DNA of 54,223 bases, taken from positions 7,210 through 61,432 of the IMG/VR virus record IMGVR_UViG_3300030380_005828. One strand, written 5' to 3'. The position numbers were made by a program, and so were the translations under genes. The first letter of the stretch is position 1, and each line of letters begins with the position of its first letter. The DNA comes from a virus. Below, one piece after another: positions 1,721-23,300 of this stretch. The notes under the pieces were generated by a model, which was not told the DNA's origin, made no database searches, and saw only the letters and a list, made by a program, of their open reading frames with translations.

Positions 1721-1740
1721 TGAAATGAGTTACTTCTATT

Positions 1741-2517: not shown

Positions 2518-2668
2518 AGTTCGAAAAGGACAGGAGATTCTTGGTAAAAATCTTACTATGGAGGATTATTGTGACTTAATGGAAGATCTTGCTCAGGATT
2601 TTTATGAGGGTAAATTTCCAAACCCTCTCGATTTAACAACTGAAATACAGGAGGATTACGAAGAATGA
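2495..2668 (+). CDS. Small acidic hypothetical protein (57 aa)
   Basis: I chose the ATG at 2495, giving 57 residues from MKKQELFKVRKGQEIL to QEDYEE. The longer in-frame extension would run deep into the glycosyltransferase and has unphage-like composition. The gene overlaps the glycosyltransferase end by 23 bases, and its stop overlaps the next start (ATGA at 2665). The protein is acidic, probably helical (MEDYCDLMEDLAQDFYEG), and has no recognised family. Confidence 0.6.
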   Translation: MKKQELFKVRKGQEILGKNLTMEDYCDLMEDLAQDFYEGKFPNPLDLTTEIQEDYEE

Positions 2669-2817
2669 ACTGCTGGCACTGTAACACCGAATTAATATGG
2701 GGTGGGGATAACTCCATGGATGAATTAAATGATGGGGATGAATCTGAATATGATTTTTTTTCTAATTTTACTTGTCCAAAATGTCAATCTTATGTTGAAG
2801 TCTTTCATCACAAATAA
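2665..2817 (+). CDS. Small zinc-ribbon protein (50 aa)
   Basis: This 50-residue protein has two CxxC knuckles: CWHC at residues 3-6 and CPKC near 38-41. An acidic Asp/Glu/Asn linker separates them. This is the classic layout of a zinc ribbon that holds one structural zinc ion and often binds nucleic acid or a protein partner. Its start overlaps the previous stop (ATGA) and its stop overlaps the next start (TAATG), so it is translationally coupled on both sides. A specific function cannot be assigned. Confidence 0.65.
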   Translation: MNCWHCNTELIWGGDNSMDELNDGDESEYDFFSNFTCPKCQSYVEVFHHK

Positions 2818-3548: not shown

Positions 3549-3565
3549 ATTTGTCAAAAAACAGG

Positions 3566-3573
3566 TATAAATA
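3566..3573 (+). promoter_or_regulatory. Late promoter box before gp25
   Basis: TATAAATA lies 17 bases upstream of the gp25 ATG. This is the T4 late promoter consensus recognised by the gp55 sigma factor with its sliding-clamp activator. It opens the baseplate operon. Confidence 0.75.
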
Positions 3574-3590
3574 AATATAAAACTTGGTTC

Positions 3591-3992
3591 ATGGCAATTA
3601 AAAGGGTATCTAGAGCGTTTAAAGACATAAGTTTATCGTTTTCACCCCATCCAGTCACAAAGGATTTACCAATTCTCAAAAATGAGAGTGCAATTCGTCG
3701 ATCAGTACGTAATATTGTTGAAACAATACCTACTGAAAAGTTTTTTAATCCTGAATTTGGATCTGATGTGTATAAAAGTCTCTTTGATTTTGTAGATTTT
3801 GGTACCGCCAGCATAATTCAAGATCAAATTAAGACATCTGTTAACAATTTTGAACCAAGAGTAGATAATGTAAGGGTTGAAGTTGACCCAGAACCTGATT
3901 TAAATCAGTTTGAAGTCACTATCATATATGATATTGTCGGTCAAGAGTTCCCAACTCAAGAGTTTACATTTATATTAGAGGCAACAAGGTAA
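3591..3992 (+). CDS. gp25: Baseplate wedge subunit gp25
   Basis: This 133-residue protein has almost the length of T4 gp25 (132 aa). It is the small lysozyme-like wedge protein that joins gp6 and starts sheath polymerisation. The family features are visible: NESAIRRSVRNIVETIPTEKFFNPEFGSD (residues 31-58), then an F-D-x-D/x-T-A helix region and a C-terminal strand pair ending FTFILEA. The same fold occurs in contractile-injection and type VI secretion baseplates (GpW/gp25 family). It is followed after one base by gp6, the same neighbour partner it contacts in the wedge. Expression is from the late box at 3566. Confidence 0.93.
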   Translation: MAIKRVSRAFKDISLSFSPHPVTKDLPILKNESAIRRSVRNIVETIPTEKFFNPEFGSDVYKSLFDFVDFGTASIIQDQIKTSVNNFEPRVDNVRVEVDPEPDLNQFEVTIIYDIVGQEFPTQEFTFILEATR

Positions 3993-3993
3993 T

Positions 3994-5922
3994 ATGCCTT
4001 TTTCAAATTTCACAAATCTTGATTTCGATCAGATAAAAACATCAATTAAAGATTATCTTCGTGCAAATTCCACTTTTACGGACTTTGACTTTGATGGTTC
4101 AAACTTTTCTGTCTTAATTGATACACTTGCGTACAATACTTATATTACAGCCTTCAACTCAAATATGGTTGTAAATGAGTCTTTTTTAGATTCTGCGACT
4201 TTAAGACAAAATGTTGTATCATTAGCAAGTAATATAGGTTACACACCACGTTCTAAAACGGCAGCAAACGCACAGATATCCTTTGATGTAGAGATAAGTG
4301 ATGATGTAAGTTCAGTGACCTTAAAGGAGGGTTTGGTGTGTACTGGAGATGTCAATAATGAAACATATACCTTTGCAATAACTGAGCAGATTAGCACGAG
4401 TGTTGTTACTAATGTTGATGGTAGAAAAATTGCAAGTTTTGAAAATATTAATGTCTTTCAAGGAACTTACTTAGAAAAGAATTTTACATTCGATGGATCT
4501 CTTGATCAAAGATTTATTTTGGATAATGATTCAATTGACGCTTCTAAAATTGTCGTTTTTATATCAGAAGATGGTGAAAGTCGTGGTGTTCAGTATAATC
4601 TTGTAGATAATATTATCAATGTTAATTCTGAGTCAAAAATATTCTTACTCAATGAGATACAAGATGAAAGATATGAGTTAAAGTTCGGTGATGGATTTTT
4701 TGGTAAAAAATTAGGTACAACTACGAATGATGATGGAAATAAAATAAAAGTTAGCTACATTACTACTGACGGTAAAGATGGAAACGGTGCTCAGAGGTTT
4801 ACATGGAGTGGAAAATTAATCCACATAGAAGGAACTGATGAAAAACCAATAACACTATCAAAAGTTCCAGAAATTACAACAGTTGTAAAGGCACAAAACG
4901 GTGGAGACATTGAACCTATCGATTCTATTAAGTATTTTTCCCCATTAACATACGCAGCACAGAATAGAGCAGTAACTGCAAGAGATTATGAAGCAATTAT
5001 TAGAAAAATTTACCCAAATACAGAGTCTGTATCCGTTATTGGTGGTGAAGAACTTGATCCTCCAGAGTTTGGAACAGTTTCCATCAGTATAAAACCGAAA
5101 AATGGTAATTTAGTTTCGGATTTTGCAAAAAATCAAATTTTATCAGGATTAAAACAGTATACAATCTCAGGAATCAATCAAAAATTAATAGATTTAAAAT
5201 TATTATACATTGAAATAGTCTCAAATGTATATTATAATGATTCACTTGTCACAAATGTAAATACATTAAAAACAAATGTCATAAATTCTCTCACAACATA
5301 CTCAAAATCACTTAATTTAAATAAATTTGGTGGTAGACTTAAGTATAGTAAACTACTTAAAGTCATTGATGACACTGATACTTCAATTACATCAAATATC
5401 ACTCAAATTATTATTAGAAGAGATTTAAATGTATCAATAAATCAATTTGCTCAGTATGAACTATGTTTTGGAAATAAATTTTTTGTTAATAAAAACGGAT
5501 TTAACATAAAATCAACAGGATTTACTATTTTTGGACAATCAGGAACATTATATTTCTCCGACATACCTAACTCTGATTTGAAAACTGGTATTTTAAGAAT
5601 CATTAAAATACTAAATGATGGAACTGTCAAAAATATAGTTTCATCAGCTGGATCTGTTGATTATGAGAAAGGTGAAGTGAATGTATCAACAATTAATTTT
5701 TTATCTACAGAAAGACCAAATAACACAGTTGAAATTCAAGCATTTCCAAGATCAAATGATGTTGTTGGTTTGAAAGATCTTTATGTAGATTTGAACATTG
5801 AAAATAGTTCAATAAATATGATTAGGGATGTTATTTCATCGGGTGATGAAATATCTGGAGTTCAATTTGTCCGAGATTTTTATTCATCAAGTTACCCAAA
5901 TGGAGAAATAATTAGAAAATGA
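3994..5922 (+). CDS. gp6: Baseplate wedge subunit gp6
   Basis: This 642-residue protein is the homologue of T4 gp6 (660 aa), the ring-forming wedge protein of the inner baseplate, and is related to the J protein of P2-like phages. The N-terminus (FTNLDFDQIKTSIKDYLRAN, then FDGSNFSVLIDTLAYNTY) is the typical gp6/J start. It is followed by NMVVNESFLDSATLRQNVVSLASNIGYTPRS (residues about 55-85). A central KYFSPLTYAAQNRAVTARDYEAII (about 310-335) marks the conserved core. It overlaps the next gene by four bases (ATGA), which couples gp6 to gp7 translation. I see no truncation. Confidence 0.93.
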   Translation: MPFSNFTNLDFDQIKTSIKDYLRANSTFTDFDFDGSNFSVLIDTLAYNTYITAFNSNMVVNESFLDSATLRQNVVSLASNIGYTPRSKTAANAQISFDVEISDDVSSVTLKEGLVCTGDVNNETYTFAITEQISTSVVTNVDGRKIASFENINVFQGTYLEKNFTFDGSLDQRFILDNDSIDASKIVVFISEDGESRGVQYNLVDNIINVNSESKIFLLNEIQDERYELKFGDGFFGKKLGTTTNDDGNKIKVSYITTDGKDGNGAQRFTWSGKLIHIEGTDEKPITLSKVPEITTVVKAQNGGDIEPIDSIKYFSPLTYAAQNRAVTARDYEAIIRKIYPNTESVSVIGGEELDPPEFGTVSISIKPKNGNLVSDFAKNQILSGLKQYTISGINQKLIDLKLLYIEIVSNVYYNDSLVTNVNTLKTNVINSLTTYSKSLNLNKFGGRLKYSKLLKVIDDTDTSITSNITQIIIRRDLNVSINQFAQYELCFGNKFFVNKNGFNIKSTGFTIFGQSGTLYFSDIPNSDLKTGILRIIKILNDGTVKNIVSSAGSVDYEKGEVNVSTINFLSTERPNNTVEIQAFPRSNDVVGLKDLYVDLNIENSSINMIRDVISSGDEISGVQFVRDFYSSSYPNGEIIRK

Positions 5923-8900
5923 TAGAAACTAATTTTGTTAGTAAAGTAAAAGTACAAGATATTATCATAAATCAACTTCCCGATTTTATTCGGGATGAAA
6001 GTCCTAGGACGCAAGAATTTTTAAAACAATACTATATTTCTCAAGAGTTTAAAGGTGGATCAATTGATATTGTTGATAATTTAGAGAGTTATTTAAATGT
6101 AAATAATTTACTACCAGAAGTTATAGTTGATAGTGCCACTACATCTGGTATTACTACTGTTGGTGCTGGAATTGTAACTGTTACTAGTACAAAAGGATTT
6201 CCAAATCAATATGGTTTAATAAAGATTGATGATGAGATAATTACTTATACTGGAATCACCACAAATACTTTTACTGGATGTGTTCGTGGGTTTAGTGGTA
6301 TTACCAGTTATCATTCAGAGGTAAATAAAGAAGATTTAGTATTCAGTTCTTCATCTGCATCAGAACATGTAGATTCATCCATAGTTCAAAATTTAAGTTC
6401 TCTATTTTTAAAAGAATTTTATAAAAAATTCAAAAAAACGTTTTTACCAGGATTGGAAGAAACAGATTTTCAATCTAAATTGGACGTAGGAACATTTATA
6501 GGAGAGGCAAGATCATTATACGAATCAAAAGGAACAGAAGAATCATTTAGAATTTTGTTTAATGTTTTATATGGATTAACTCCAAAAATATTAAATTTAG
6601 AAAATAGATTGATTAAATCCTCATTTGCTAAGTATGTCAGAAGAAGAGTTTGTGTTGCTGAATTATTATCAGGAAATCCTGTTAAGTTAAAAGGTCAATC
6701 TTTATTAAAGGGTTTAACTGGTCAAGCTCTTTTTAGAAGTGATTTAGATTCAAATATAAATGCATCCATATCTGAAATAGAACCATTTGAAAGATTTAAT
6801 TCTGGTTTAACTGGTATCACAACATACTTTAAGATTGGTTTATTTATTGGGTATGACGAAAGTGGTGATGTTCAAAATGATTTTGTTATTGTACCAAATA
6901 CAAAATCATTAGAAACTGTATCAGTTGGTGCTAGTATTATCAGTGTCGATTCGACAGTTGGGTTTGCAACTGCGGGAACAATTATATCAGGTTCAAATAA
7001 TATAACTTACAGTGATAAAACTGTTAATCAATTTTTAAATTGTGAGGGGGTAGTAGAACCAATACAACCAATACAGAATATTAGATCAGATATATCATAT
7101 TTTGGATTTGAAGACGGTGATATTAATAAACGAGTCAATTTAAGATTAACTGGTGTATTATCAGACTTTGAACAAATTGAACAGATTGACGCTGAGGAGG
7201 GTGATGTAATATCTGTTTTGAGTTTAGGAGAAAAAGTTGAAAATAATAATTTAAATTATAAGCAAATATTTTCTAATTCATGGGTTTACAATACAAGTTC
7301 TTCTTATTTTATAAAAAGTATAAATGGAGCAATATATACTTTAAATAGTGAAATAGATAAATCAAGTTTAAAGGTTGGAGATTTTGTTGAAATAGTATCT
7401 GTAGATAATAATGAAGTGGTTGTACCAGTTGCAGGTGATACAGCACCTTATATTTTTGACATTGATTTAACTTTAGGTACGGTAACACTTAATGGTAACA
7501 ATGCATCTTCACAAAAATTAGAAAACTTAATTCCAAATTTTGACATTAAAAATTTCAAATTAAGAAAAATTCTTAATAAAGCATCAAGCAGTGGTGCACC
7601 CCTAGAGTATGGGAATGATAAAATTATCTCAGATATTCAAAATGTATATATTGAAAAAAATTCAGAAAATGCTTATGTAACATCTAATTCATTACCATCA
7701 TTTGTTAATAAAAATACTAATAACTCATCTAAGAAAAGTAAGGAAATTAATGTAAATGTAAATGAATCATCAGTTGATATATCAGATCCTAATAGTTTAT
7801 CTGGAAGCACAGATGATCAATTAGATTTTGATACGATAATTTTTTCAGAAAATGTTGGATTTATAACTGGTGATAAAGTCTTTTACTCACATACAAATGG
7901 AGGAGGACTTGTTGGTTTAGAAACAGGTGCCTACTTTGTTGATGTTATTGACGAAAAAAAGATAAAATTGTACTCTGCACCTACAAATATAGATGGTGGT
8001 AAAAATTTAAGATTTGGTAGAAGTACTGATAATGGACTAGTTAAATTTACTTTATTTTCTCAAAAATCATCTATAATTAGTCCACAAAAATTATTAAAGA
8101 AGTTCCCTTTAAATCAGGATATATCAAATGGTGAAAATGAAGAAACTCAGGAAGGACAAACAGGTATTTTAATTAATGGTGTTGAGATAACCAATTATAA
8201 ATCGTCAGATAAAATATATTTTGGTCCTATAAATGAATTCAATGTTTTAAATGGAGGAGATAATTATGATGTAATTAATTTACCTGAGATATCTGTATCT
8301 GCTGGAATAGGAACAACAGCTTTAGTTCAACCTGTAATTAGTGGAAAGATTAAAGAAGTATTCGTAGATCCTCAAAACTTTGATATAGATAGAGTTATTT
8401 CTGTAGAAGTGGTTGGAGGAAATGGAAATGGATGTGTTTTAGAACCTGTACTTGGAGAAAGATTTAGAGTAAATTTATTTGATACGAGATTATCTACATC
8501 TGGTGGTGGCATAGTAACAGATGCGAAGGATAGTAGTAACAATGATCTCCCTGATCGTATAAAATTTTTAGAAAATCATAATTTTGTTACTGGAGAACCT
8601 ATAATTTATGATTCCTTTAACAATCAAGGAATTGGAACAGGTTTCGCAAATACTTTAATTAACAAATCTATATATTATCCAAGAAAAATTAATTCTTCAG
8701 TTATTCAATTGCATACATCACCAGAGGATGCTTTGAATGACACAGGAGCGTTGTCGTTTAATGGTTCTAATGTTTCGGGTAGGCACTCCTTTAATGTAGG
8801 TATTCGAAATACATTAATTGACATCAAGGTGATAGATGAAGGTGATGGATATACAAATAGAAGATTAAGGGTAGATCCAAATATTGGAATTAATACAATA

Positions 8901-11900
8901 TTTAATTCAATCAACTTTAAAAATCATGGGTTTAATGATGGGGATATAATTGAGTATTCAACTGTTGGTACAAAAATTTCTGGATTGACAACATCAACAG
9001 GAATTACTACAACAACAAATAATTACAAAATTTTAAAAATTGATGATGATTCATTTAGAGTCGCAGATATTGGTATAGCAGCAACAGTGACTGAAAACTA
9101 TGAAAGGAGAAAGTTTGTTGAATTTTCTACCACTGGAACTGGAGAGCAGATTTTTTCATATCCAAATATTGAAGTTAATGTTCAATTTAACAAAGTAGGT
9201 GTTGCAACTACATCAATTACATCAATTGATTTAATACCTAAAGTGAGAGGTGGCATCAAACAGGTATATTTACATGAAAAAGGAACAGGTTATGGATCTA
9301 ACATTATTAATAATCATAAAAAACCATCTATAACACTTAAAAATGGTAAATTTGCATCATACAGACCAATCATATTAGATGGTAAAATTATAGATGTAGC
9401 TGTTGAAAATTTTGGAAAGGAATATTTTTCAGAACCAGATATTGAAGTCATTGATCCTACTGGATCAGGTATTGGTGCAAAATTAAGACCAATTATAGAG
9501 TTTAACACGAATGCAAATACTAATGTCTTAAATGATATTAAAATTGTAAACGCAGGTATTGGGTATTCAACTGATTCAGTAATAAGAATTAAATCATCTG
9601 GTCAGGATGCATTATTCGATACTGAAATAAGATCTTTAAATGTTAATAAATTTTTAAAATATGGTGAACCTAGAATTGCAAGTGATGAATATCAAATATT
9701 GGAGGATTCTGATAATAATTTAAAATATTCAATCATTGGATATACAACCTCATTACTTGATAGTAAATCTGGTTTAATAGGTTGGGCATATGATGGAAAT
9801 CCAATATATGGACCTTTTGGTAGTAGTAATCCACGACAATTTTCAGATACAAATACTAAATTAAAATCAAGTTATGAACTCAAACCTGAAAATGTAGAAG
9901 ATAGACCCACTGATAGACCAGATGGATTCTTTATTGAAGATTATGAATTTAATAAATCAGGTGATTTAGATGAGCATAATGGTAGATTTGAAAAAACACC
10001 AGAATTTCCTAATGGGGTTTATGCTTATCACGCTACATTTAGTGGTGGAGAAACTCCAGATTTTCCATATTTTATAGGTAATACTTATAGATCTAAAACA
10101 ATTGATCATAATTTAAGTAATATTCAGCAAACTAATTTTGATTTTAATACAAATGATGTATTAAGAAACACTTTGCCATATAAAGTTGCAGATAAATTTG
10201 CTAATAATGATTTTATAATTGAAACTAATGATCTGAGAAATCAAAAGATTGAAATTAAATCAATATCATCGGGTTCTATTTCAGATATTGATATAGTAAA
10301 TGGTGGTTTAAATTATAAAGTTAATGAATTTTTGAATTTTAACAATGATAATACATCAGGAAATGGGTTAATTTCTGTAATTTCAAGAATAGGTGGTAAA
10401 CGAATTTCTAATATACAGACAACTATAGATAAAAACGAAAATACAGTGCTAGAGTGGTCAGAGGATAAAATTAATTTTTATACTTCTGATAATCATAACT
10501 TAAATACAAATGATACTGTAACTATATCAGGTATATCCTCAGATTTATCATTTTTAAACGACTCATTTAAAATTACTGTAGATAGATTTGAAACTAAGAC
10601 AATATCAGCAATACCCAATGCAGTTGCTGGTGTTACAACTGAAATATTTGTTGCAAATATACCAAACTCAGTTTCTATCGGAAATAGTATTACCGTTGGT
10701 TCAGAAACTTTAAGAATACATGATATTTACAGAAATTTAAATATATTAACAGTAAGTAGATTATCAAATACTAATGTTCATCCAAAAGGAACACAAGTAA
10801 AATATCTTACCAATAAATTCAGTATTATTAAACAGTCACCTTTCTTTGAATCAAATAATGTTAAACAATTATATTTCAATGCAGATCAATCAATTGGTGT
10901 AGGATTTGAAGATGGTTCTGAACTCACTAAGACATTTTCTTTTGCTGGTAGAGATATAACAAGAAATATTCCTATAAAACAAATTTATATTGAAAATCAT
11001 GGTTTAACAACAAATCAAAAAATAAAACTCACTAAACCAACACCATCATCTCAAATTACGGTGTCTACGCAGAATAATGGTGCAAATCCTTTCGCCATTC
11101 CAGAAATACTATTTGCAGTGAATAAATCTATCGATACTATTGGTATAAAAACTGAAATAAATGCAAATGAAATTTATTTTTCCAGCTTAACACAAGGTGA
11201 TAATGATAATTTTAAATTAGAAACAATAGTTGATCAAATTACATGTAAAGCAGAAAAAATAAAATCAAAAGTAACAACGTCTAACAATCATGGGTTGGAA
11301 ACAGATGATAATATTTCGTTACTCGTTCAACCATCTCTATCTGTTGGAATTGGTACCTCAACATCTGTTAAAGTTGTTAGAGATGAGTTGACAAGTAATA
11401 TTTTAATTAATCAACTAGGATTTTCTTCAACAGGAATTAATACTACAACAAATACAATCACTATTTTAGATCATGAGTTAAAAACAGGTAACAAGGTAAA
11501 ATATAAAGCCTCAGTTTTACCAGAGGGTTTAGAAAATAAAAATTACTTTATTTACAAAATTGATGATGATAATTTTAAACTATGCGAAACATTTATTGAT
11601 ACTAAACAAATTATCCCTACTATTGTAGGATTAGGATCAACAGGAGGAGATTCACAATCAATTTCATTAATAAATCCAATAATCAATTCTGTCAAAAATA
11701 ATAATTTAACGTTTGATCTTTCAGACTCTTCATTAATTGGATATAATTTTAAATTATATTATGATAATAAATTTGAAAATGAATTTACATCTGATGGTAA
11801 AGGTTCCACCTTTAACATTTCTACACTTTCAGAACCAATTGGATCTGCAGGGGCGGCATTAACCATAGGATTTACAACTAATTTACCTAGTAAATTATAT

Positions 11901-14900
11901 TATAATCTTGAAAAATCAGGAATTATTGGCACTGTTGATAGTTCAGTTAATAAAAATAATCAAATATGTTTTGAAGATAGTGCTTATGTAGGAAATTATT
12001 CTATTACAAAAGATGGTGATAATACATTTGATATTAATTTAAAACGAAAACCAGAAAAATTATCTTATTCTCAAGCAGACTGTGATAATTTAAGTTATAA
12101 CACAAATTCAAAAACAGCATCTGGTTCTATAAACTCTATTAATATTCTCTCTGGAGGTTCTAATTATAAAAAATTACCACAATTCATTGGAATTGGTGGA
12201 AGTTCAATTGGTGTTGGTGCAGTTATCAAACTAAAATCTACTTCTGTCGGTAATGTTAGTAAAATCAGAGTCATAAATGAAGGATTTGAATATTCCTCTG
12301 ATAAAACTTTACAACCTGAAAGTTTGGTAGCTTCAACAATTAATATTATTAATGCAGATACTTTAGGTGTTGTTAGTGTAACTAATGGTGGATCAAATTA
12401 TGTAATTAAACCAAATGTCATCATTGTTGATAGTGATACAGGTCTTCGGATAGACAGTGGATTTTTAGATCCAGTTTTACTAGAAAATAGTATTCAATCT
12501 GTTAATATTGTAGAAACTCCAATTGGTTTACCAGCAAATCCAGTAACATTACGAACAACAAATAATACAAATGGTATAGTTATCGAAGAAGTAATATCTA
12601 ATAATAGTGGTATATTTACTTGTAGAATATCAACACCAAATTTTGGTTTTCCTATTGATCCATTCTCAATTAATGATAGAGTTTTTATTGAAGGTATACA
12701 AAAAATAGGATCAGATGGATCAGGGTTTAATTCATCTGATTATGGATTTAATCTGCTCAAAGTTACAGGTTATGAAGAGGGTGTAAACGGAAAAGATCAA
12801 GTTAAGATTGATGTTACTGAATTTACAAATAATACGGGAACTTCTGAGTCAACTCTTACTACATTTGCAACTATCATAAATGAAGATGATTATCCTAAAT
12901 TTGATGTAATTCAAAATCAATCTAGATTTATCGTTGGTGAGAAAATACTAATTAATAATAATGAAACAGATCTCACAATAACTAAAGTTGATATATCAAA
13001 ATTGAAAGTTTTTGGTGAAGATAATATAAAATCAACAGACATTATAAAAGGTAAAGTTTCTTTAAGTCAATGTGAAGTCAAAGATATTGTAAAAAATATT
13101 GCAAGATTAAAAACTGATTTTTCTGTTTTAAAAGATTTGGGTTGGGAAGATGATATTGGAAAATTAAATGAAGATTTTCAAGTTATTCCTGATAATGACT
13201 ATAATCAAAATATGTCATACTCTATCCAAAGTCCGATTGAGTGGGATGAGATGAGAACAGTAGTGAATAATTTAGTTCATATAAGTGGAATGAAAAATTT
13301 TGCAGATGTGGGAATCAAATCAAATACACAATCTGGAGTTTCAACTGATTTAAGTAATACTGAAGTTACAGTTATTATGGATTTATTTGGTAACAAAAGA
13401 GTAGATGAAGTGAAAGATATTGATACTGTCAGAGATATAGATGTTGTAGGAAATACAAGTAGATTTATTAAGTTTGATAATATAAGGTTATCTGACTTTA
13501 TAAACTGCAAAACAAATGATGTTCTTTTAATTGATGATTTATCAAATCAATTTAGTAATATAGATACAAATGTTAATGATTTTGTAGAAATACTTGAATT
13601 TTCCAATTTAACATCTACAGAGTTTTTCAATAATTTAATAATAATTTCATCCACCAATCCAAGTGAAAAAATAGAAATATCGGAGTTATTAACAATAAGT
13701 AATGGATCTGAAAATATTTTAGTCAAGAAAGCAAATTTAATAAACTCAGGTGAAGGTTTAAACACTGCTGAAGATAATCTTGTAGAATTTAATCTACATG
13801 ATAACCCTCTCACAAGTAAACAATCATTAAGATTCCGTCCAATAATAGACCCAATTCCAGGTAATGAACGTGATTTTGACCTTAAAATTTTTAAATCAGA
13901 ATTCAATACTAATTCAAATGGAAATGGGACTCTTTCAATAGGACCAATTACTTTAAATTCTAAAATTCAACAATGTGCCGTTGGTATTACAACTGAAATT
14001 ATAAGTGTGCCAGTTGATAAGTTTGAATCTTTATATTCTACAATTTTTGTATTTAATAATTCTACAAGAGAAATGAATTTGATAGAAAATTATGTATCTC
14101 ATAAAGATTCCGATACTTTCATAGTAGAGTCATATTTCAATGGAGATAAAAATAATATATCTCTCAATAAATTAGGAAATATTACATCAAATATATCTTC
14201 AGGTAACTTAATATTAAACTTTGAAAATACACAATCAAATACTTTAAAATTAAAATCAAAAGTAGTAGGAATAGGTACAACTGGTGAAACTGATGGTATA
14301 TACCGATTTAAAGCTCAAGGACAATTGGATGGTAGTGAGAGATTCTCAATATATACTGGAATCAGTTCTAGTAAAATTGGAGTCTCTACATTTGAAATTT
14401 TAAATGCAAATCAATTTAATGCAGTAAAATCAGTTGTAGAAGTGAGTATTGGATCTTCTAAAGCTGTTAGTGAAGTATTATTTTTACATGATGGAGATGA
14501 TGCATACTCACAAAGATCGGGGTCTTTATCTTTGACAAAAGATCAAAATAGTAATTTTGACACTTCTGCTGGACTTGGAACTTTTGGTGCATCTATTTCA
14601 GGAAATGATTTTAATTTGGAATTTTATCCAGATAATACAACTGGAGTATGTACAGCTGTTGCATTAAATCATTGTTTTTATGCATTAGTAGATTCTGAAA
14701 ATATAGCAGTTGATTTGGATTATGGTGTCATCAGTGAAAGTAATACAGTTAATTTTTATAATTCACCCTTTGGAAATAGACTCATTAGAACCAAATTTAC
14801 ACCAAAAGTGAATGGCATAGAAATTTACGGTAAATCTTTTAATCCCTCAAATTCATCAATAGTTAATTTATCAACAGGTAAATTTTCAATCAATGATCAC

Positions 14901-17900
14901 TTTTTTAGAAATGCAGAAGAATTAATATATGAACCAAAATCTACTTTTATTGGAGTTGGATTTACACCAATGCAATTTAAGGGTGCATCTGGAGGTATTG
15001 GATCTTTAACCTCTCCAGTTTTTGCAATTGTTGGTGATGATAAAAATTCATTCTCAATAGCAACAACAAGGGCAGATGCAATATCTGGAGCAGCAGTGAC
15101 ATTTGTTAGTATTGGTGAGGGTAATGCTCATCAATTTAGTATGGCCAAGGCAAATGAAAAATCTTTGTTTATTATAGATGATATAGTTCAATATCCATTA
15201 ATTAGAAGTGATGTAGAATACACCTTAAAAAATAATTTGGATGGAGAAGTTGGTTTAACGACTGATATAATTCACTTAAGTGGGATTAGTACAATAACAT
15301 CATCTGATTTATTAAAAATAGATAATGAATTTGTCGAAGTGGTTAATGTGGGATTTGCAACAACTGGGGGTGCTCCAGTAGGAACATCTGGAACATTTAA
15401 CACAGTTCAAGTTAAACGTGCTTTTGTTGGATCTGCTTCAACAACTCATAATGACGGAACTACTGTAACAAGATTTAGAGGATCTTATCATATTAACGGT
15501 AAAGATCTACATTTTACTAGAGCTCCTAGAGGTGATTTGACTGGTGAAAAAACTATAAATGATTTAAATCCACCTACCTCTGAGTTTTCTGGTAGAGTGT
15601 ATTTAAGAAATAATTATGAAACCAATCAAATATTTGATGATATTTCAGATTCATTTACAGGAATAAAATCTGATTTTATATTAAAAGTTGGTGGAGCTAA
15701 TACTGTGGGATTAGGATCAACTGGTGGAAGTGGTATATTATTGATTAATGGAATATTCCAATCACCTTCAACTGAATTTAATCAAAATAAAAACTTTAAA
15801 ATTTTAGAAAGTGGCACTGGTGCCTCTGGAGTTACAACAATATTATTCACTGGTATTACTGATGAAAATGGAAATCCTTTCATATCTAATAATATTAATA
15901 ATAATCAATTGCCAAGAGGTGGTGTACCCATAGCAATAGGTAACACTGTCAATGGTTTGGGATATGCTCCTTTAGTAGGTTCAGAAGTTAAACCACTAAC
16001 AAATGCATCAGGACAAATAACAAGCATAGTCGGAACTCCATATAGTTCTTCTGATATCGGTGTGATTAGTGCGGATTATACAAATACTACAGGTATCATG
16101 ACAGTCACCACTCTTAATGAACATCCATTTAATGGATCAGGTGATTTTGTTTTACTTAATAATTTGACCTTTAATCCTGCTTTCCCAAGTGGATTTATAA
16201 GAAATAATGAATATGAGGTTATTTCTATAGCAGCAACTAATGTATTTACAGTATCAATTGGAAAGAGTTCTACATCAAATTCATATACTTCGGGTGGAAA
16301 TATATATCCATATTATCCTAATTTAACCTTTGGTTCGGGATATAGTGATGTTGTTTCTATAGGAGTTACCGTCCGAGATCCTGGATATGAACATCGTTTT
16401 ATAAATGCAAATCCAAATGCAATAACAATTACTTCTGGAGGGTCAGGTAATTTAACACCTTCTGATGCATCATATGATCCTGTAAATGGAACTTTAACAA
16501 TAACTTCTGATAATCATGGATTAGAGAATACTAGTGTTATTACACTCTCAGATAATAGTTTTTTCTTTACATGTTCGAAAGATGCCTTTAAAACAACTCA
16601 TTCATATCCAAGATCAACAGATCCTGCATCGACAAGTAATTCACAATTAAACAATGGTCAGTTATCAGTGACAAAAATAAGTGAAGATGTATTTAGTGTT
16701 GATGTTGGTGAGAATGTAGGTAGTGGTGCAGATATTTCTGCTGTAGCGGGAGTTGGTGGTACTGCTATATTCACTATTAATTCTGGAGGTTCTGGTTATA
16801 AAACTCCTCAGATATTTGTTTCTGAACCATCTTACTCAAATCTATCAATTAAAGGTATCTCTAGACTAGGAATTGGTCCTACAACTGATACTGGAACTGA
16901 TTTGAGAGTGACAGCAAAAGTTAAAGCTGCCACAGGTATTGGAAGCACCATGTTTGAAATATCTGAATATGAAATAGAAAATTCAGGTTTTGGATTTAAA
17001 AAGGGAGATGTTGTAGAAGCAGTTGGATTAGTAACAAGTGGTAAATTAAGTCAATTAGAATCAAAATCTACATTAACTATTGAAAAAATTTATAATGACA
17101 GTTTTGCTTTATGGCAGTTTGGTAAATTTGAATATATTGATTCTATTGAAAATTTACAAGATGGGATACGTTCTAGTTTTCCTTTAAAAATTAATAATCA
17201 ACTTATAAGTGTTGAAAAAGATGATGACACTATTGATAAAAATGTAAACTTGGAAAATTTCTTTATTGTAACTGTAAATGGTATAATACAAGAACCATCA
17301 AAAGCTTACACTATTGTTGGTGGTAGTGTATTAAGTTTTAAAGAACCATTACTTGGTAAAACAATTGATGAAACTGGTGCTAGTCAGGGTGATGATGTTA
17401 GTATTTTATTCTACAGGGGAACTGCTGGTGAAGACTCTACTATAAATCTTGCTCAAAAACTAATTATAGAACCAGGTGATGAAGTGCAAATTAAAAAAGG
17501 TGAAGAAGTTGTTGAACAGAGCCGTAGAACAGTTTATAATTTAAATACATCACAAACATTAGAAACAAATCCTTATGTAGAATTAGGTATTAGTGAACAG
17601 GTAAGCAGACCTTTGAATTTATTGAAACAGAAAGAGGATAAAATAATAAATAAAATTCTTATTTCTAAAAAAAGGTCAAGTATTGAACCTAGAATAACAC
17701 CTGTTGCCAAAATAATTTCCGATATTACTTCATCATCAACATCTATTTTTGTAGATAATACAAGATTATTTGAATATGAGGCGACGGCATCAAATGATGA
17801 TCCTAAACAATCTTTACAAATATTTGATTCAAAATTTAAAGATACGACTAAAGCATCTGCAACTGCTAATGTTTCAACAGCAGGAACTGTGACGGGATTT

Positions 17901-18701
17901 AACATTATTAATTCTGGATTGGGTTATGATTCAGATATTACTATCAAACTATCAGCACCACCAGTAATTGGTGTTGGAGTGGGTACAACAGCAACTGCTA
18001 CAGCAACTATTAATGCTAGTGGTTCTATCACGGATATATTAGTTGTTAACCCTGGTTTGGGATATACAATAAAACCTCAAGTTCTAATCAGTAGTCCTAA
18101 TGAATTATTTGAAATTTCTGAAGTGGTATCCACTACAAAAGAGGAAGGAGGTTCATCTAATACAGTAATATTAGAAAACTCTGGTGTAATCACGGGTATA
18201 GGAACTACCATATTTGATGGTAAATTAGGAATTAAATTTAATTTAAAGACTTATCAAAGTGGTATCCACCCAGTTTCATTTGGTATTGTTGAGAATGTTG
18301 GAAATCCAATCTACGTGTTTGATACAAGGTCTGGTAATGGTGTCATATCAATTAATCAAAATGATTCCAATGTCATTGGAATTGGAACAACTTTTGTTGA
18401 TAACATTTATACTGTAGCTGCCTTTACAAAATCTGGATCGACTGGAATCTTAACATCATTGATTAAATCTGATACTGTAGTTACTGGTATTGAGATAACA
18501 GGATCTACGAATCAACCTGTTGGTAAATATTCAGTTGGATCTATTACGAATGTTATAAGGGGATCAAATCCAATATCAATTGGAGTAACTGGTTCAACTG
18601 TTGGATTAACCACAGCACTTGGAATATCAACATTCCCAACTTTAAAGAGAGTAGCAGGAGACAAAACATTCGAACAAACAGGTGCCATAATTCCAGAATA
18701 A
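5919..18701 (+). CDS. gp7: Giant gp7-type baseplate wedge protein with repeat modules and a YHYH-like domain
   Basis: This is an uninterrupted 4260-residue protein, about four times T4 gp7 (1032 aa). The assignment rests on position between gp6 and gp8 and on an N-terminal core. That core includes PDFIRDESPRTQEFLKQYY (about 16-34), FLKEFYKKFKKTFLP (about 163-177) and LYESKGTEESFRILFNVLYG (200-219), and it resembles the C-terminal conserved part of T4 gp7. An inserted module (residues about 75-145, with CVRGFSG) splits this core. Repeat units with a GGxGY/NxGxGY signature recur near 775, 971, 1118-1237, 1458, 2075, 2118, 2154, 3621 and 3995-4059. A YHYH-like domain spans about 1285-1395. A further motif (FTCSKDAF...YPRSTDPAS) lies near 3545-3575. 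It probably forms the outer wedge arm and a host-contact surface. Confidence 0.85.
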   Translation: MIETNFVSKVKVQDIIINQLPDFIRDESPRTQEFLKQYYISQEFKGGSIDIVDNLESYLNVNNLLPEVIVDSATTSGITTVGAGIVTVTSTKGFPNQYGLIKIDDEIITYTGITTNTFTGCVRGFSGITSYHSEVNKEDLVFSSSSASEHVDSSIVQNLSSLFLKEFYKKFKKTFLPGLEETDFQSKLDVGTFIGEARSLYESKGTEESFRILFNVLYGLTPKILNLENRLIKSSFAKYVRRRVCVAELLSGNPVKLKGQSLLKGLTGQALFRSDLDSNINASISEIEPFERFNSGLTGITTYFKIGLFIGYDESGDVQNDFVIVPNTKSLETVSVGASIISVDSTVGFATAGTIISGSNNITYSDKTVNQFLNCEGVVEPIQPIQNIRSDISYFGFEDGDINKRVNLRLTGVLSDFEQIEQIDAEEGDVISVLSLGEKVENNNLNYKQIFSNSWVYNTSSSYFIKSINGAIYTLNSEIDKSSLKVGDFVEIVSVDNNEVVVPVAGDTAPYIFDIDLTLGTVTLNGNNASSQKLENLIPNFDIKNFKLRKILNKASSSGAPLEYGNDKIISDIQNVYIEKNSENAYVTSNSLPSFVNKNTNNSSKKSKEINVNVNESSVDISDPNSLSGSTDDQLDFDTIIFSENVGFITGDKVFYSHTNGGGLVGLETGAYFVDVIDEKKIKLYSAPTNIDGGKNLRFGRSTDNGLVKFTLFSQKSSIISPQKLLKKFPLNQDISNGENEETQEGQTGILINGVEITNYKSSDKIYFGPINEFNVLNGGDNYDVINLPEISVSAGIGTTALVQPVISGKIKEVFVDPQNFDIDRVISVEVVGGNGNGCVLEPVLGERFRVNLFDTRLSTSGGGIVTDAKDSSNNDLPDRIKFLENHNFVTGEPIIYDSFNNQGIGTGFANTLINKSIYYPRKINSSVIQLHTSPEDALNDTGALSFNGSNVSGRHSFNVGIRNTLIDIKVIDEGDGYTNRRLRVDPNIGINTIFNSINFKNHGFNDGDIIEYSTVGTKISGLTTSTGITTTTNNYKILKIDDDSFRVADIGIAATVTENYERRKFVEFSTTGTGEQIFSYPNIEVNVQFNKVGVATTSITSIDLIPKVRGGIKQVYLHEKGTGYGSNIINNHKKPSITLKNGKFASYRPIILDGKIIDVAVENFGKEYFSEPDIEVIDPTGSGIGAKLRPIIEFNTNANTNVLNDIKIVNAGIGYSTDSVIRIKSSGQDALFDTEIRSLNVNKFLKYGEPRIASDEYQILEDSDNNLKYSIIGYTTSLLDSKSGLIGWAYDGNPIYGPFGSSNPRQFSDTNTKLKSSYELKPENVEDRPTDRPDGFFIEDYEFNKSGDLDEHNGRFEKTPEFPNGVYAYHATFSGGETPDFPYFIGNTYRSKTIDHNLSNIQQTNFDFNTNDVLRNTLPYKVADKFANNDFIIETNDLRNQKIEIKSISSGSISDIDIVNGGLNYKVNEFLNFNNDNTSGNGLISVISRIGGKRISNIQTTIDKNENTVLEWSEDKINFYTSDNHNLNTNDTVTISGISSDLSFLNDSFKITVDRFETKTISAIPNAVAGVTTEIFVANIPNSVSIGNSITVGSETLRIHDIYRNLNILTVSRLSNTNVHPKGTQVKYLTNKFSIIKQSPFFESNNVKQLYFNADQSIGVGFEDGSELTKTFSFAGRDITRNIPIKQIYIENHGLTTNQKIKLTKPTPSSQITVSTQNNGANPFAIPEILFAVNKSIDTIGIKTEINANEIYFSSLTQGDNDNFKLETIVDQITCKAEKIKSKVTTSNNHGLETDDNISLLVQPSLSVGIGTSTSVKVVRDELTSNILINQLGFSSTGINTTTNTITILDHELKTGNKVKYKASVLPEGLENKNYFIYKIDDDNFKLCETFIDTKQIIPTIVGLGSTGGDSQSISLINPIINSVKNNNLTFDLSDSSLIGYNFKLYYDNKFENEFTSDGKGSTFNISTLSEPIGSAGAALTIGFTTNLPSKLYYNLEKSGIIGTVDSSVNKNNQICFEDSAYVGNYSITKDGDNTFDINLKRKPEKLSYSQADCDNLSYNTNSKTASGSINSINILSGGSNYKKLPQFIGIGGSSIGVGAVIKLKSTSVGNVSKIRVINEGFEYSSDKTLQPESLVASTINIINADTLGVVSVTNGGSNYVIKPNVIIVDSDTGLRIDSGFLDPVLLENSIQSVNIVETPIGLPANPVTLRTTNNTNGIVIEEVISNNSGIFTCRISTPNFGFPIDPFSINDRVFIEGIQKIGSDGSGFNSSDYGFNLLKVTGYEEGVNGKDQVKIDVTEFTNNTGTSESTLTTFATIINEDDYPKFDVIQNQSRFIVGEKILINNNETDLTITKVDISKLKVFGEDNIKSTDIIKGKVSLSQCEVKDIVKNIARLKTDFSVLKDLGWEDDIGKLNEDFQVIPDNDYNQNMSYSIQSPIEWDEMRTVVNNLVHISGMKNFADVGIKSNTQSGVSTDLSNTEVTVIMDLFGNKRVDEVKDIDTVRDIDVVGNTSRFIKFDNIRLSDFINCKTNDVLLIDDLSNQFSNIDTNVNDFVEILEFSNLTSTEFFNNLIIISSTNPSEKIEISELLTISNGSENILVKKANLINSGEGLNTAEDNLVEFNLHDNPLTSKQSLRFRPIIDPIPGNERDFDLKIFKSEFNTNSNGNGTLSIGPITLNSKIQQCAVGITTEIISVPVDKFESLYSTIFVFNNSTREMNLIENYVSHKDSDTFIVESYFNGDKNNISLNKLGNITSNISSGNLILNFENTQSNTLKLKSKVVGIGTTGETDGIYRFKAQGQLDGSERFSIYTGISSSKIGVSTFEILNANQFNAVKSVVEVSIGSSKAVSEVLFLHDGDDAYSQRSGSLSLTKDQNSNFDTSAGLGTFGASISGNDFNLEFYPDNTTGVCTAVALNHCFYALVDSENIAVDLDYGVISESNTVNFYNSPFGNRLIRTKFTPKVNGIEIYGKSFNPSNSSIVNLSTGKFSINDHFFRNAEELIYEPKSTFIGVGFTPMQFKGASGGIGSLTSPVFAIVGDDKNSFSIATTRADAISGAAVTFVSIGEGNAHQFSMAKANEKSLFIIDDIVQYPLIRSDVEYTLKNNLDGEVGLTTDIIHLSGISTITSSDLLKIDNEFVEVVNVGFATTGGAPVGTSGTFNTVQVKRAFVGSASTTHNDGTTVTRFRGSYHINGKDLHFTRAPRGDLTGEKTINDLNPPTSEFSGRVYLRNNYETNQIFDDISDSFTGIKSDFILKVGGANTVGLGSTGGSGILLINGIFQSPSTEFNQNKNFKILESGTGASGVTTILFTGITDENGNPFISNNINNNQLPRGGVPIAIGNTVNGLGYAPLVGSEVKPLTNASGQITSIVGTPYSSSDIGVISADYTNTTGIMTVTTLNEHPFNGSGDFVLLNNLTFNPAFPSGFIRNNEYEVISIAATNVFTVSIGKSSTSNSYTSGGNIYPYYPNLTFGSGYSDVVSIGVTVRDPGYEHRFINANPNAITITSGGSGNLTPSDASYDPVNGTLTITSDNHGLENTSVITLSDNSFFFTCSKDAFKTTHSYPRSTDPASTSNSQLNNGQLSVTKISEDVFSVDVGENVGSGADISAVAGVGGTAIFTINSGGSGYKTPQIFVSEPSYSNLSIKGISRLGIGPTTDTGTDLRVTAKVKAATGIGSTMFEISEYEIENSGFGFKKGDVVEAVGLVTSGKLSQLESKSTLTIEKIYNDSFALWQFGKFEYIDSIENLQDGIRSSFPLKINNQLISVEKDDDTIDKNVNLENFFIVTVNGIIQEPSKAYTIVGGSVLSFKEPLLGKTIDETGASQGDDVSILFYRGTAGEDSTINLAQKLIIEPGDEVQIKKGEEVVEQSRRTVYNLNTSQTLETNPYVELGISEQVSRPLNLLKQKEDKIINKILISKKRSSIEPRITPVAKIISDITSSSTSIFVDNTRLFEYEATASNDDPKQSLQIFDSKFKDTTKASATANVSTAGTVTGFNIINSGLGYDSDITIKLSAPPVIGVGVGTTATATATINASGSITDILVVNPGLGYTIKPQVLISSPNELFEISEVVSTTKEEGGSSNTVILENSGVITGIGTTIFDGKLGIKFNLKTYQSGIHPVSFGIVENVGNPIYVFDTRSGNGVISINQNDSNVIGIGTTFVDNIYTVAAFTKSGSTGILTSLIKSDTVVTGIEITGSTNQPVGKYSVGSITNVIRGSNPISIGVTGSTVGLTTALGISTFPTLKRVAGDKTFEQTGAIIPE
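9775..10105 (+). other. YHYH-like domain inside the giant gp7-type protein
   Basis: Residues about 1285-1395 of the giant protein contain GWAYDGNPIYGPFG (from 1288), then LDEHNGRFEKTPEFPNG, VYAYHATF (1367-1374) and FPYFIGNTYRS (to about 1392). This order (DGxPIYGP, L-D-E-x-N-G-R, TPEFP-G-Y-Y-H, FPY-x-I-G) is the signature of the YHYH domain family of secreted and surface proteins. The role of the family is not established. The flanking sequence is beta-repeat modules, so the domain looks inserted. Confidence 0.75.
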
Positions 18702-18721
18702 TGACTTATTTAAAAATCTTG

Positions 18722-18729
18722 TATAAATA
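18722..18729 (+). promoter_or_regulatory. Late promoter box before gp8
   Basis: TATAAATA lies in the 45-base gap between the giant gene and gp8, 17 bases before the ATG. It matches the T4 late consensus. A separate promoter here would keep gp8 and downstream genes expressed despite the 12.8-kb gene upstream. Confidence 0.75.
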
Positions 18730-18746
18730 TCTAAAAAACTAATAAT

Positions 18747-20366
18747 ATGCCAGCAGTAGTAACAGATCAATTTAGAATAACGAATGCAGGTAATTTTGTA
18801 GAATCTGTCTTGAATGAGAACAATTCGTACTATGTATTTTTAGGATTACCAAATCCTCAAGGAAAAACTGGAGAAACACCAGAAGTTGGATTTGGAAGAA
18901 CAAGTACTTGGAATACGGAAGGTGCACCAGATCCTGTAGATAATTTACAATATTTAACTCACTATCGAGATACTTCGTTATTTGGTAAAAAAATAAATTC
19001 TTCAAATATAAGAAGGGTGGTAAAAAAACATAGTTGGATTGCAAACAAAAGTTATGACATGTATAGACATGATTATTCTTTGAGTGAAAATAATCCAACA
19101 CCTAATGGACAAGGTGGTCTTTACGGAACAAATTATTATGTTATTACGTCAGAATTTAAAGTTTATATATGTCTACAGAATGGTGGATTTGGAACTGGAA
19201 ATGAAGCAAAGGGAAATGCAAGTAAAGATGAACCCACGTTTACCGATTTAGAACCAGCACCAGCAGGGACAAGTAATGATGGATACATATGGAAATACTT
19301 ATTTACAGTTGATCCAAGTGATGTTATAAAATTTGATTCAATTGAATATATTGTATTACCTAATGACTGGTCAACATCAAGTGATTCACAAATACAATCC
19401 GTAAGAGAATCTGGTGACTCTGATATAAATAAAAACCAAATTAAAACAGTTTATATAAAAAAGGCAGGAGCTAATTATGGTAATTTAGATAAATCATATG
19501 TATGCAATATTCTTGGTGATGGTACTGGTGCTAGAGCATTAGTGACTGTTACTGGTGGAATAATTACAGATGTTGTTGTAACATCTGGGGGATCTGGTTA
19601 TACCTTTGCACAAGTTGATTTAAGTAGTTTACCTTTTGGAGGAACAGACGATAATAGAGCTATTTTAATACCAATCATTCCTCCTTCAAAAGGTCATGGA
19701 TTTGATATTTATACTGAATTAGGTGCAGATAAGGTTTTAATATATTCTAGATTTGACGACTCTACTAAAGATTTTCCTACTGATACCCATTTTGCTCAGG
19801 TTGGTATTATTAAAAATCCTACAGGACAAGATAATACAGGTATTTTAACAACAACACAATTTTCATCAGTATCATCTATCAAATTTAAAACAGGTATTAA
19901 TGCTCCAAGTGGGGGATTTGATGAATTAATTGGTATAGGTATAAAGCAAGATCGTGTCATTGATAATGTAGGTGTTACTGCAAGAGGGATAATAACCTCT
20001 TATGATGAAGAAACATTTGTATTAAAATATATTCAAGATCGAAGTTTGAATTTAAACCCAGTTACAAATGATACAACAGATTTTTCTGATATTGATAAAA
20101 GGGGACAAGTAATCGATTTTGGATCAACAGATGATATAGAAGCAACAGGTGGTCTTTTTTCAAATAAAACACCCGATAGTAATTTTTCAGGAATTACAAC
20201 AACTGTTAATAATAAACAAATAAATTTAGGTGTTGATTTTAAAAATGGTTTAGCTGCTCCTGAAATAAATAAAAAGACTGGTGATATTATTTACATTGAT
20301 AATCGTAAAGAAGTAACAAGAAACATCAGACAAAAAGAAGATGTTAAAATCATTCTGGAATTCTAA
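18747..20366 (+). CDS. gp8: Baseplate wedge subunit gp8
   Basis: This 539-residue protein corresponds to T4 gp8 (334 aa). The shared features are an N-terminal YYVFLGLPNP...VGFGRTSTWNTEG (about residues 28-60), HDYSLSENNPTPNG..GLYGTNYYVITSEFKVYICL (about 108-147) and PAGTSNDGYIWKYLFTVDPSD (about 173-193). It ends KTGDIIYIDNRKEVTRN...KIILEF, like the T4 C-terminus. The extra length is largely an inserted segment at about 230-295. There a GGxGY-type repeat unit (KKAGANYG..., then TSGGSGYTFAQV) identical in style to those in the gp7-type protein interrupts the gp8 fold. gp8 binds gp7 and gp10 in the wedge. Expression is from the late box at 18722, with 5 bases to the next gene. Confidence 0.88.
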   Translation: MPAVVTDQFRITNAGNFVESVLNENNSYYVFLGLPNPQGKTGETPEVGFGRTSTWNTEGAPDPVDNLQYLTHYRDTSLFGKKINSSNIRRVVKKHSWIANKSYDMYRHDYSLSENNPTPNGQGGLYGTNYYVITSEFKVYICLQNGGFGTGNEAKGNASKDEPTFTDLEPAPAGTSNDGYIWKYLFTVDPSDVIKFDSIEYIVLPNDWSTSSDSQIQSVRESGDSDINKNQIKTVYIKKAGANYGNLDKSYVCNILGDGTGARALVTVTGGIITDVVVTSGGSGYTFAQVDLSSLPFGGTDDNRAILIPIIPPSKGHGFDIYTELGADKVLIYSRFDDSTKDFPTDTHFAQVGIIKNPTGQDNTGILTTTQFSSVSSIKFKTGINAPSGGFDELIGIGIKQDRVIDNVGVTARGIITSYDEETFVLKYIQDRSLNLNPVTNDTTDFSDIDKRGQVIDFGSTDDIEATGGLFSNKTPDSNFSGITTTVNNKQINLGVDFKNGLAAPEINKKTGDIIYIDNRKEVTRNIRQKEDVKIILEF

Positions 20367-20371
20367 GAAAA

Positions 20372-23300
20372 ATGACCCAAAAAATTAATTTAAATGCAAG
20401 CCCATATTATGATGATTATGATAGTTCAAAAAACTTTCATAAAGTATTATATAAACCTGGATTTCCAGTACAGGCAAGAGAATTAACATCACAACAATCA
20501 ATATTACAAAATCAAATAGAAAAATTTGGTGATCATATATTTAAAGAAGGATCTGTGGTGATTCCTGGAGGAATTCTTTTTGATAATCAATTTAGTGCTG
20601 TAAAATTAAATGCAACTAATTTTAATGTTGATATTTCTGTATATATTAATAATTACTTAGGAAAAAAAATTGTAGGAAGTGAATCTGGAGTAGAAGCGAT
20701 TGTTAAATTTATTGCTTTACCAGATGAAATTAATGTAAGTGATGTCACTTTATATGTTAATTACTTAAGTGGAAATAAAAATTCAGAATTTAGTACATTT
20801 ACTGATGGTGAATCATTAAGTTCTAATGAATCAGTATTGTATGGAAACACAACAATAAATGCCAATACACCATTTGCATCTTTAGTGTCCACAGATGCGA
20901 CTGCGATTGGATCAGCTGCTTTTATTTCTCAGGGTGTATACTTTATAAGAGGATTTTTTGTCAATGTTTCAGATCAAACTTTAATATTAGATCATTATAC
21001 TAATAATTCTTCTTACAGAATTGGATTGCAAATAAATGAGTTATTAGTAAATGCAAAAGAAGATAGTAGTTTATTTGATAATGCAAAGGGATTTACTAAT
21101 TTTGCTGCACCAGGTGCTGATAGATTAAAAATAGAATTAATTTTAAGTAAAAAATTATTAAGTGATAAAAATGATACTGATTTCGTCGAACTCATGAGAG
21201 TCGATGAAGGTAAAATTAAAAAAATAATTGTTAAAAGTGATTATAATAAAATAAGAGATTGGATTGCAGAGAGAACTTTTGAGGAGTCGGGTGATTATAG
21301 TGTAGATCAATATAGAATAGGTTTGTTTAATTCTTTAAATGATAACCAAGGTAATAACGGATTATTTTTTGCAGATGATACTACTGATCAGGGTAATGAT
21401 CCATCTGATGATTTAATGTGTGTAAAAATAAGTGCTGGTCAGGCATATGTGAGAGGATATAATGTTGAAAATACAGGCACAGAAATAGTAGATGTTGAAA
21501 AACCAAGAGAAGTTGGAATAAGAAGTGATGTTGGTGTTGGATTTGAGATGGGTAATATTTTAAAGTTAAACAATGTAACAAAGGGTTTTGCTGTACAGGG
21601 AAGCACCATTCAATTATTTGATAATTTTAAGGGAGAAGGTGAAAATATTGGAAGTGCAAGAGTATATTCATTTAATTTAGAAGACGCATCTTATGTCAAT
21701 GTAACAACTAGATGGGAATTAAGATTATATGACATACAAACAAATACAAATTTAACCTTAAATCAACCAATTAGTAACACAGAACTACCTTCTGGATCAT
21801 TTGTTAAAGGAAAAAATAGTGGAGCAAGTGGATTTGCTGTTCAAGATGGTGATAATTCACCGTTAATTAAATTAAATGATACATCAGGATCTTTTGTAAG
21901 AGGTGAACAGATACAAATTAACGGTATAGATTTTCCTAGAATAGTTGGTATTGTAACGGCATTTACAACTCAAAGCATTAAATCTGTAAAAGATGGTGCT
22001 AAATTTTTAGCAGATACGGTTCCAGAAAAATTTAGATTACCCAATAATGTAACAGAGGTTATAATAAGTAATAACGGTCAAACAGCCACTCCTATATCAG
22101 GCAGTTTTTCTGGACTCAGAAAAGGATCCATGGTTGTGTTTACGGAACCAGGTGCAGATGTGAGTACTTTCAATAAAGTAACAAGTGTAAATGCAAATGG
22201 TTCAATAACATTAACTTTCTCTGGAGATAATAATGATGTATCTGGAGTGCGTAATGAAGGACTCCTTGTAGCAGGTGGCACAGTGCAAATGTTTGCAGCT
22301 GCACCCATAATCAGGGGAGTTGGTAAGTTATATGCTCCACTTGATAATCAAAATATATCGAAAGTAGATTTATCAGATTCTAGTATCAAAATATCAACAC
22401 AACTAATAGGTAAAAGTGTGTCTGGTAATACGTTGTCATTGAATAGTCAGAATGATTTTTCACCCGCCATACCTAATGTAATATTTGAAACTTTTGATCA
22501 GGAAAGATATTCTGTATTTAAAAATTCTGACGGAGCACCACAACCATTATCAAAGGAGAGGTTTAAATACAATAATAATGGTGCCGATATTCAATTTACA
22601 AATTTAACTCAAACTAATGTTGATGTAAACGTAACTCTTATAAAAACAAAGATAAGGTCAAAGTTAAAAGAATATGTTAGAAGTAGAAAATTAATTATTA
22701 ATAAATCAAGAAAATCAATATCTGGTGCTACTGCATCAGGTAATGGGGGTTCAATATCGGATGGTTTAACATTTGATAAAAGATATGGATTAAGAGTTCA
22801 GGATGAAGAAATATCATTGAATCTTCCTGATGTTGTTAAATTTTTAGCTGTATATGAATCAACAAACACATCTGCACCAACATTAGATAAATTGGTATTT
22901 CCTGCTTCTATTAGTGCAAGTGATAATATAATTGTTGGTGAAAATATCTTATCATCCGACTCGCAAATAGTTGCAAGGGTGGTTTCATCTAACGTTGGTG
23001 GAGATCCAAATGCCTTAGAGATTGTTTATATTTCAAGTGGTAAATTTAGTTCTGGAGATTCAGTTAAATTTTCCGAATCAAATGTAGCAACAAATATTGA
23101 ATCAATAGAACTTGGAAAATTTAAAAATATTACAAATTCATTTACGTTGGATAAAGGTCAAAGAAATGAATTTTACGATTATTCAAGACTTGTAAGAAAT
23201 AAAAATGTACCTGAACCAAGTGGTCAATTATTAGTAGTATTTGATTTTTATTCAGTTTCGTCAGATGACGGTGATGTATTCACCGTAGAAAGTTACGATG

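Follow-up and report, generated by a model that had tools for sequence, protein, structure and literature searches.

A giant gp7-type protein with its baseplate wedge core at the N-terminus in a virus resembling marine T4-like myoviruses

T4 gp7 has been stated to be absent from pelagi- and cyanomyophages, in which VrlC apparently substitutes for it (PMC7029224). A second study placed gp7 under the non-cyanophage core and called it highly divergent, although mass spectrometry of purified S-SM1 virions in that work detected T4-GC 969 (PMC3037559). T4-GC 969 is SSM1_102, the protein of 6,180 residues at the gp7 position of S-SM1. Solved wedges of the type (gp6-like)2-gp7-like contain XM1 gp17 and A-1(L) gp32. 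Both proteins have N-terminal cores, and spikes or fibres are held by the remainder of each protein (PMC10457771, PMC10966104).

The locus described here lies in a viral DNA of 54,223 nucleotides, referred to below as the window (IMG/VR record IMGVR_UViG_3300030380_005828, positions 7,210 to 61,432). It contains the following genes:

3591..3992, + strand: gp25 homologue, sheath initiator / wedge subunit (Pfam GPW_gp25, E 1.5e-14; PHROG 261)
3994..5922, + strand: gp6 homologue (PHROG 219, E 7e-190; Pfam Gp6-like_1st, E 5e-17)
5919..18701, + strand: giant gp7-type baseplate wedge protein, 4,260 aa, 463 kDa (PHROG 2885 and open frame)
18747..20366, + strand: gp8 homologue, wedge subunit (PHROG 438, E 3e-144; Pfam Phage-Gp8, E 4e-12)
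20372..27820, + strand: VrlC-type protein, 2,482 aa (PHROG 358, E 0; DUF4815)

The order gp25-gp6-gp7-gp8-VrlC is that of P-HM2, S-SM2 and phiN3, and the VrlC-type gene occupies the position of the genes annotated VrlC in these three phages. In tblastn searches gp6 matched gp6 of T4-like phages with identities down to about 25%; it is the expected partner of gp7 in a (gp6)2-gp7 wedge. An initial look in the contig for Baseplate_J found none.

Several other genes of the window are worth recording. The gene at 2817-3548 has a conflicting annotation: PHROG 3704 says ferredoxin, and the genes at the corresponding place before gp25 are called PurM in S-SKS1 and purM/ferredoxin in S-SM2. Between VrlC and gp13 just one gene is obviously of the fibre type, an ORF of 313 residues (28394-29335) that partially matches many families of tail fibres and wedge proteins. 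The genes for the small and the large terminase are separated by an ORF of 688 residues with no assigned function (32855-34921). The tail sheath protein (37820-40504, 894 residues) matches PHROG 7578 with residues 290-375, and the same PHROG also matches part of the gp7-type protein of S-PM2.

A preliminary description of this DNA had reported a frame open for 12.8 kb, and 5919-18701 indeed comprises 4,260 codons without an internal stop. The start codon overlaps the stop codon of gp6 (ATGA at 5919-5922). Of about 70 metagenomic relatives, nearly all have a stop in frame 1-4 codons before the gp7 start. No N-terminal part of the protein has therefore been overlooked, in agreement with the earlier statement that nothing precedes the core and about 4000 residues follow it. 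The same description had named an assembly fusion of two genes as a possible source of the frame. This can be ruled out. In 32 of the relatives the frame is open across all of the approximately 3,600 codons available for comparison, and in most of the others it is open up to the contig end. Third codon positions are the most frequent differences between giant gp7 and its relatives in every 400-codon block checked. Moreover, a single CDS of 3,048-6,180 aa is found at the same position in six complete cyanophage records (P-HM2, S-PM2, S-SM1, P-SSM2, S-SM2 and S-CAM4). These observations together indicate a real frame.

The record of S-SKS1 is an exception: several frame changes interrupt its gp7 gene (15001-27387), part of which is unannotated. 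The gene also has an extra stretch of about 790 nt (about 260 codons) at the equivalent of window residue ~1864. An intein or intron was considered for this stretch and the idea was abandoned, because its translation reads as repeats of the beta-propeller type.

Residues 3-4244 of the protein match positions 3-4177 of the 4179 in the profile of PHROG 2885, 'baseplate wedge subunit' (E 0, 3106 bits). tblastn with the first 264 residues returned 179 phage records, nearly all from cyanophages, many of which are annotated 'baseplate wedge initiator' or gp7. Clearly this family was already known. By its sequence the protein belongs to this catalogued family and is orthologous to gp7, in a T4-like marine myovirus of the cyanophage type.

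The relationship to T4 gp7 itself is distant. Searches with the single sequence, phmmer of residues 1-264 against PDB entries and blastp against T4 gp7, yielded nothing or marginal matches, the blastp match showing 44% identity over 32-34 residues. A Pfam scan found none of the T4 gp7 domains in giant gp7, domains V and VI (PF21427, PF21456) included, though both are detected in T4 gp7. Profiles aligned the two proteins. The hhalign comparison of a profile of closer relatives with the T4 gp7 family scored 46 (E 3.6e-5), and 20 column shuffles did not exceed 26; a profile of 80 diverse cores, built with the beta insert left out, scored 64 (E 1.5e-7 to 5e-8), with 100 shuffles at 25 or below. 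When all PDB sequences were searched by hmmsearch with an HMM of 78 cores, only T4-type gp7 fell below E = 0.001 (6e-4 and 8e-4), the next best match having an E-value of 0.27. T4 gp7, scanned against the PHROGs, matches PHROG 2885 (E 1.3e-4) and also a bridging family, PHROG 17744, which has the core at its residues 12-121; T4's own PHROG 964 is matched by 31 of 78 family members (best E 1.8e-7). The register is consistent among the profile tests, in which the KGT helix at residues 199-219 is aligned with T4 ~733-753. It should be noted that the tests are not fully independent of each other, and that the pairwise profile E-values refer to a single comparison while the PDB and PHROG searches are on the scale of a database. 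Strong alignment is limited to a short segment of 30-65 residues, and the first helical hairpin is colinear but weakly aligned.

In T4 gp7 the Pfam domain Gp7_helical spans residues 643-689 and the KGT helix lies at ~723-758. Judged from the agreement of hhalign, the PDB search and the PHROG matches, the N-terminal region of the giant protein is homologous to the T4 gp7 core, which follows T4 residue ~640. This bears out the identification of the core in the preliminary description, whose three quoted segments occupy residues 29-39, 163-173 and 199-219. It had also put about 700 residues before the core in T4; the extension exists, but the match starts at ~643, so that the figure should be ~640. 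Structure prediction spoke neither for nor against this match. AlphaFold models of residues 1-640 (44 sequences) and 1-331 (78 sequences) had a mean pLDDT of 60 and 65, respectively, and no gp7 was among the Foldseek matches of these low-confidence models. Only the beta-barrel insert resembled known folds, namely small barrels of the F1-ATPase type. The explanation for this may lie in the nature of the core, a helical bundle which needs two gp6 partners and alone is a poor target for AlphaFold.

The core region can be divided as follows:

5937..6110, + strand: first core half, helices within residues 7-64, colinear with T4 gp7 from ~643 (predicted helices)
6114..6368, + strand: beta-barrel inserted in the core, residues about 66-150 (predicted strands; Foldseek likeness to small beta-barrels)
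6381..6608, + strand: second core half, helices within ~155-230, with the KGTEESFRILFNVLYG motif (predicted helices, conservation)
6501..6713, + strand: segment aligned with T4 gp7 ~729-789, residues 195-265 (hhalign, PDB hmmsearch)

Many positions of the second half are invariant or nearly so among 78 sequences. The AlphaFold model, at low confidence, places helices 7-64 and 162-218 on either side of a beta-barrel at 72-158. This barrel is absent from T4, from phiN3 and from Pseudomonas phage pf16. In phiN3 this core runs without a break through residues 9-160 (hhalign E about 1e-17) and aligns with T4 too (E 5e-5); in pf16 the core occupies residues 5-156. In Melnitz-3 it is split (residues 9-44 and 160-259), and in S-SM1 about 590 residues stand between the two halves. 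In XM1 gp17 a loop inside the core domain, residues 80-106, holds one tail spike and the C-terminus holds another (PMC10457771). The core thus has a site that tolerates insertions, taking from none to several hundred residues, and a comparable site in the solved XM1 structure attaches a receptor-binding spike.

It might be asked whether the core was moved to the front in giant gp7. The core is first in phiN3 (1,006 aa), pf16 (523 aa) and Melnitz-3 (896 aa), which are related to the window phage through gp6, and in all cyanophages compared. The position in giant gp7 (residues 7-265) is also that of minimal wedge proteins of the XM1 gp17, A-1(L) gp32 and P2 gpI kind. Proteins of 284-315 aa that follow gp6 in Ackermannviridae gave weak core matches (E 1e-4 in a search of seven proteins). 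About 640 residues precede the core in T4 and about 700 in Vibrio phage D527. In other words, an N-terminal core is the usual plan, from which T4 and its close kin depart by an extension at the front. The preliminary description had the wedge initiator 'rebuilt' from a T4-like state, which is not supported in view of the core-first proteins of phiN3, pf16, Melnitz-3, XM1 and A-1(L). A permutation that would have carried the front domains of T4 to a place behind the core was also rejected: in profile comparisons with T4 1-642 no segment of the arm (the long part behind the core) scored above shuffled controls, so nothing has been permuted. There was likewise no convincing match of the arm to T4 766-900 or 861-1032; the two best scores, near residue 4110, were weak. 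On an unrooted comparison, it is simplest to assume that front domains were acquired by T4 and its kin, and a long rear arm by the marine group. The gp7 family can thereby be ordered, with the core first in most lineages examined and last in T4 and its kin, and a single baseplate gene ranges from about 500 to more than 6,000 residues while its core stays constant at ~160-180 residues. Together with the insertion site in the core, this gives cryo-EM of cyanophage tails a clear map of the places to examine.

Behind the core, the following modules were recognised:

6885..7058, + strand: second beta-barrel-type module, residues 323-380 (insert HMM, i-E 2e-6)
9762..10040, + strand: YHYH domain, residues 1282-1374 (Pfam PF14240, 84.6 bits against a cut-off of 25)
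16455..16706, + strand: copy-variable module, single copy, residues 3513-3596 (module HMM, E 1e-28)
17838..18131, + strand: stretch similar to a head-closure protein module, residues 3974-4071 (PHROG 460, E 1e-19)

The arm is rich in beta structure. Most of its length is colinear among near relatives, with less than 10% gaps and about 50-70% identity; identity is 74-86% in the first 300 residues of the protein. The region 3401-3600 has low identity and is the most gapped part of the arm, and the C-terminal stretch of 430 residues is conserved, within this gene, across cyanophages. The copy-variable module, about 77 residues long with the pattern HGL...SLTFTC...YPR..DP, is found inside gp7 of cyanophages; whole or partial matches number 12 in P-SSM2, 7 in P-HM2 and 2 in S-SM1. 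YHYH has been proposed as a metal-dependent hydrolase on the basis of its histidines (PMC7824862). Its namesake motif is degenerate, reading YAYH in the window and YAYF or YCYF in four isolates, so that the proposed metal site is perhaps not intact and enzymatic activity here seems doubtful.

What might such a protein do in the virion? The helical core would assemble with gp6 in the wedge, and the chain of beta-rich modules, some 4,000 residues long, would run outward from there. The arm would most likely build the baseplate's peripheral framework, where gp8, VrlC and fibres would attach, and would take the place of the domains found before the core in T4 gp7. The core homology, its N-terminal place, the module composition and the family-wide conservation are observed; assembly with gp6 and the place and role of the arm we infer. 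Taken as a whole, an orthologue of gp7 with its core in the wedge and its arm as an outward framework is the probable explanation of this ORF; for the framework role by itself we would put the chances at about even. The arm could be cleaved or could carry receptor-binding tips.

Several observations speak for an arm mainly devoted to host contact, flexible and with the gp7 core as anchor, in which distal modules would bind the surface of the cyanobacterium. One arm module is common to tail-fibre families and varies in copy number between phages, the YHYH domain has been linked to tail and lectin-type proteins (PMC7824862, PMC7029224), S-SKS1 carries the beta-propeller-like insertion, the stretch near residues 3401-3600 is divergent and gapped, and XM1 gp17 holds tail spikes through its core loop and C-terminus. 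However, for most of its length the arm is colinear among near relatives, which have fewer than 10% gaps and ~50-65% identity there, unlike mosaic receptor-binding tips, and this argues against a mainly hypervariable tip, as does the conserved C-terminus. We regard such an apparatus as rather unlikely; a structural framework with a limited number of adaptable sites would fit the arm better. Of the 'large arm or host-contact apparatus' suggested earlier, the long arm remains and a tip mainly for host contact is argued against. It is less likely still that the product undergoes processing in the virion, with its core retained in the wedge and the remainder cleaved into separate structural proteins. 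The great length of giant gp7 would suit processing, as would S-PM2, where a shorter protein (3,048 aa) is followed by an extra gene for a 175-residue virion protein before gp8. On the other hand, in analyses not aimed at cleavage no pointer to a protease or cleavage site turned up incidentally, and apart from the S-SKS1 record with its frame changes there is one continuous gene in the complete isolates compared.

Finally, the published view would make the ORF an unrelated virion protein between gp6 and gp8, gp7 being absent and its role taken by VrlC. The lack of T4 gp7 domains in the Pfam scan and the marginal BLAST match to T4 gp7 speak for this reading. It is nevertheless very hard to reconcile with core homology found by several routes together with gene position, and with the presence of VrlC in the same phages (P-HM2, S-SM2); in phiN3 the core is in a gp7 of 1,006 aa alongside VrlC. 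A search with the phiN3 core gave 452 records, three of them named Pelagibacter. The occurrence of the gp7 core beside gp6 in cyanophages that also have VrlC contradicts, as far as sequence comparison goes, the stated absence of gp7 from cyano- and pelagimyophages (PMC7029224). A group of abundant marine myoviruses thus keeps a gp7 orthologue and has not had it replaced by VrlC.

Returning to the arm as a framework, a more far-reaching proposal is possible, though we put it forward tentatively. Six copies of a gp7 arm of 3,000-6,200 residues, together with VrlC, might form most of the periphery of the cyanophage baseplate in place of T4 gp9-gp12, with insertions and changes in copy number setting reach or host contact. 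If true, this would be a baseplate design that, to our knowledge, has not yet been seen in any solved structure.

Compared with known systems, giant gp7 is closest to the proteins of cyanophages. Like PHM2_086 of P-HM2, SSM2_097 of S-SM2 and gp7 of P-SSM2 it matches the PHROG 2885 profile over its whole length, has the same gp25-gp6-gp7-gp8-VrlC neighbours, an N-terminal core split by a beta insertion and a YHYH domain. Identity over residues 9 to ~3400 is about 28% (S-SM2) to 38% (P-SSM2), and the variable module is present once, in contrast to several copies in P-SSM2 and P-HM2. The Sinorhizobium phage phiN3, pf16 and Melnitz-3 likewise have an N-terminal core directly after gp6, but their C-terminal part comprises only about 370-850 residues, and in phiN3 and pf16 the core is uninterrupted. 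XM1 gp17 and A-1(L) gp32, whose published descriptions indicate an N-terminal helical core in a wedge heterotrimer, are small proteins (242 residues in XM1 gp17). T4 gp7 (PHROG 964; PDB 5hx2, 5iv5) has the same gene position as giant gp7 and shares the helical core (T4 ~643-790) with its KG-T/I-E-S-F/Y...LF..LY motif. While T4 gp7 has about 640 residues before this core and domains V-VI after it, giant gp7 has nothing before it, a beta-barrel splitting it and about 4,000 residues behind.
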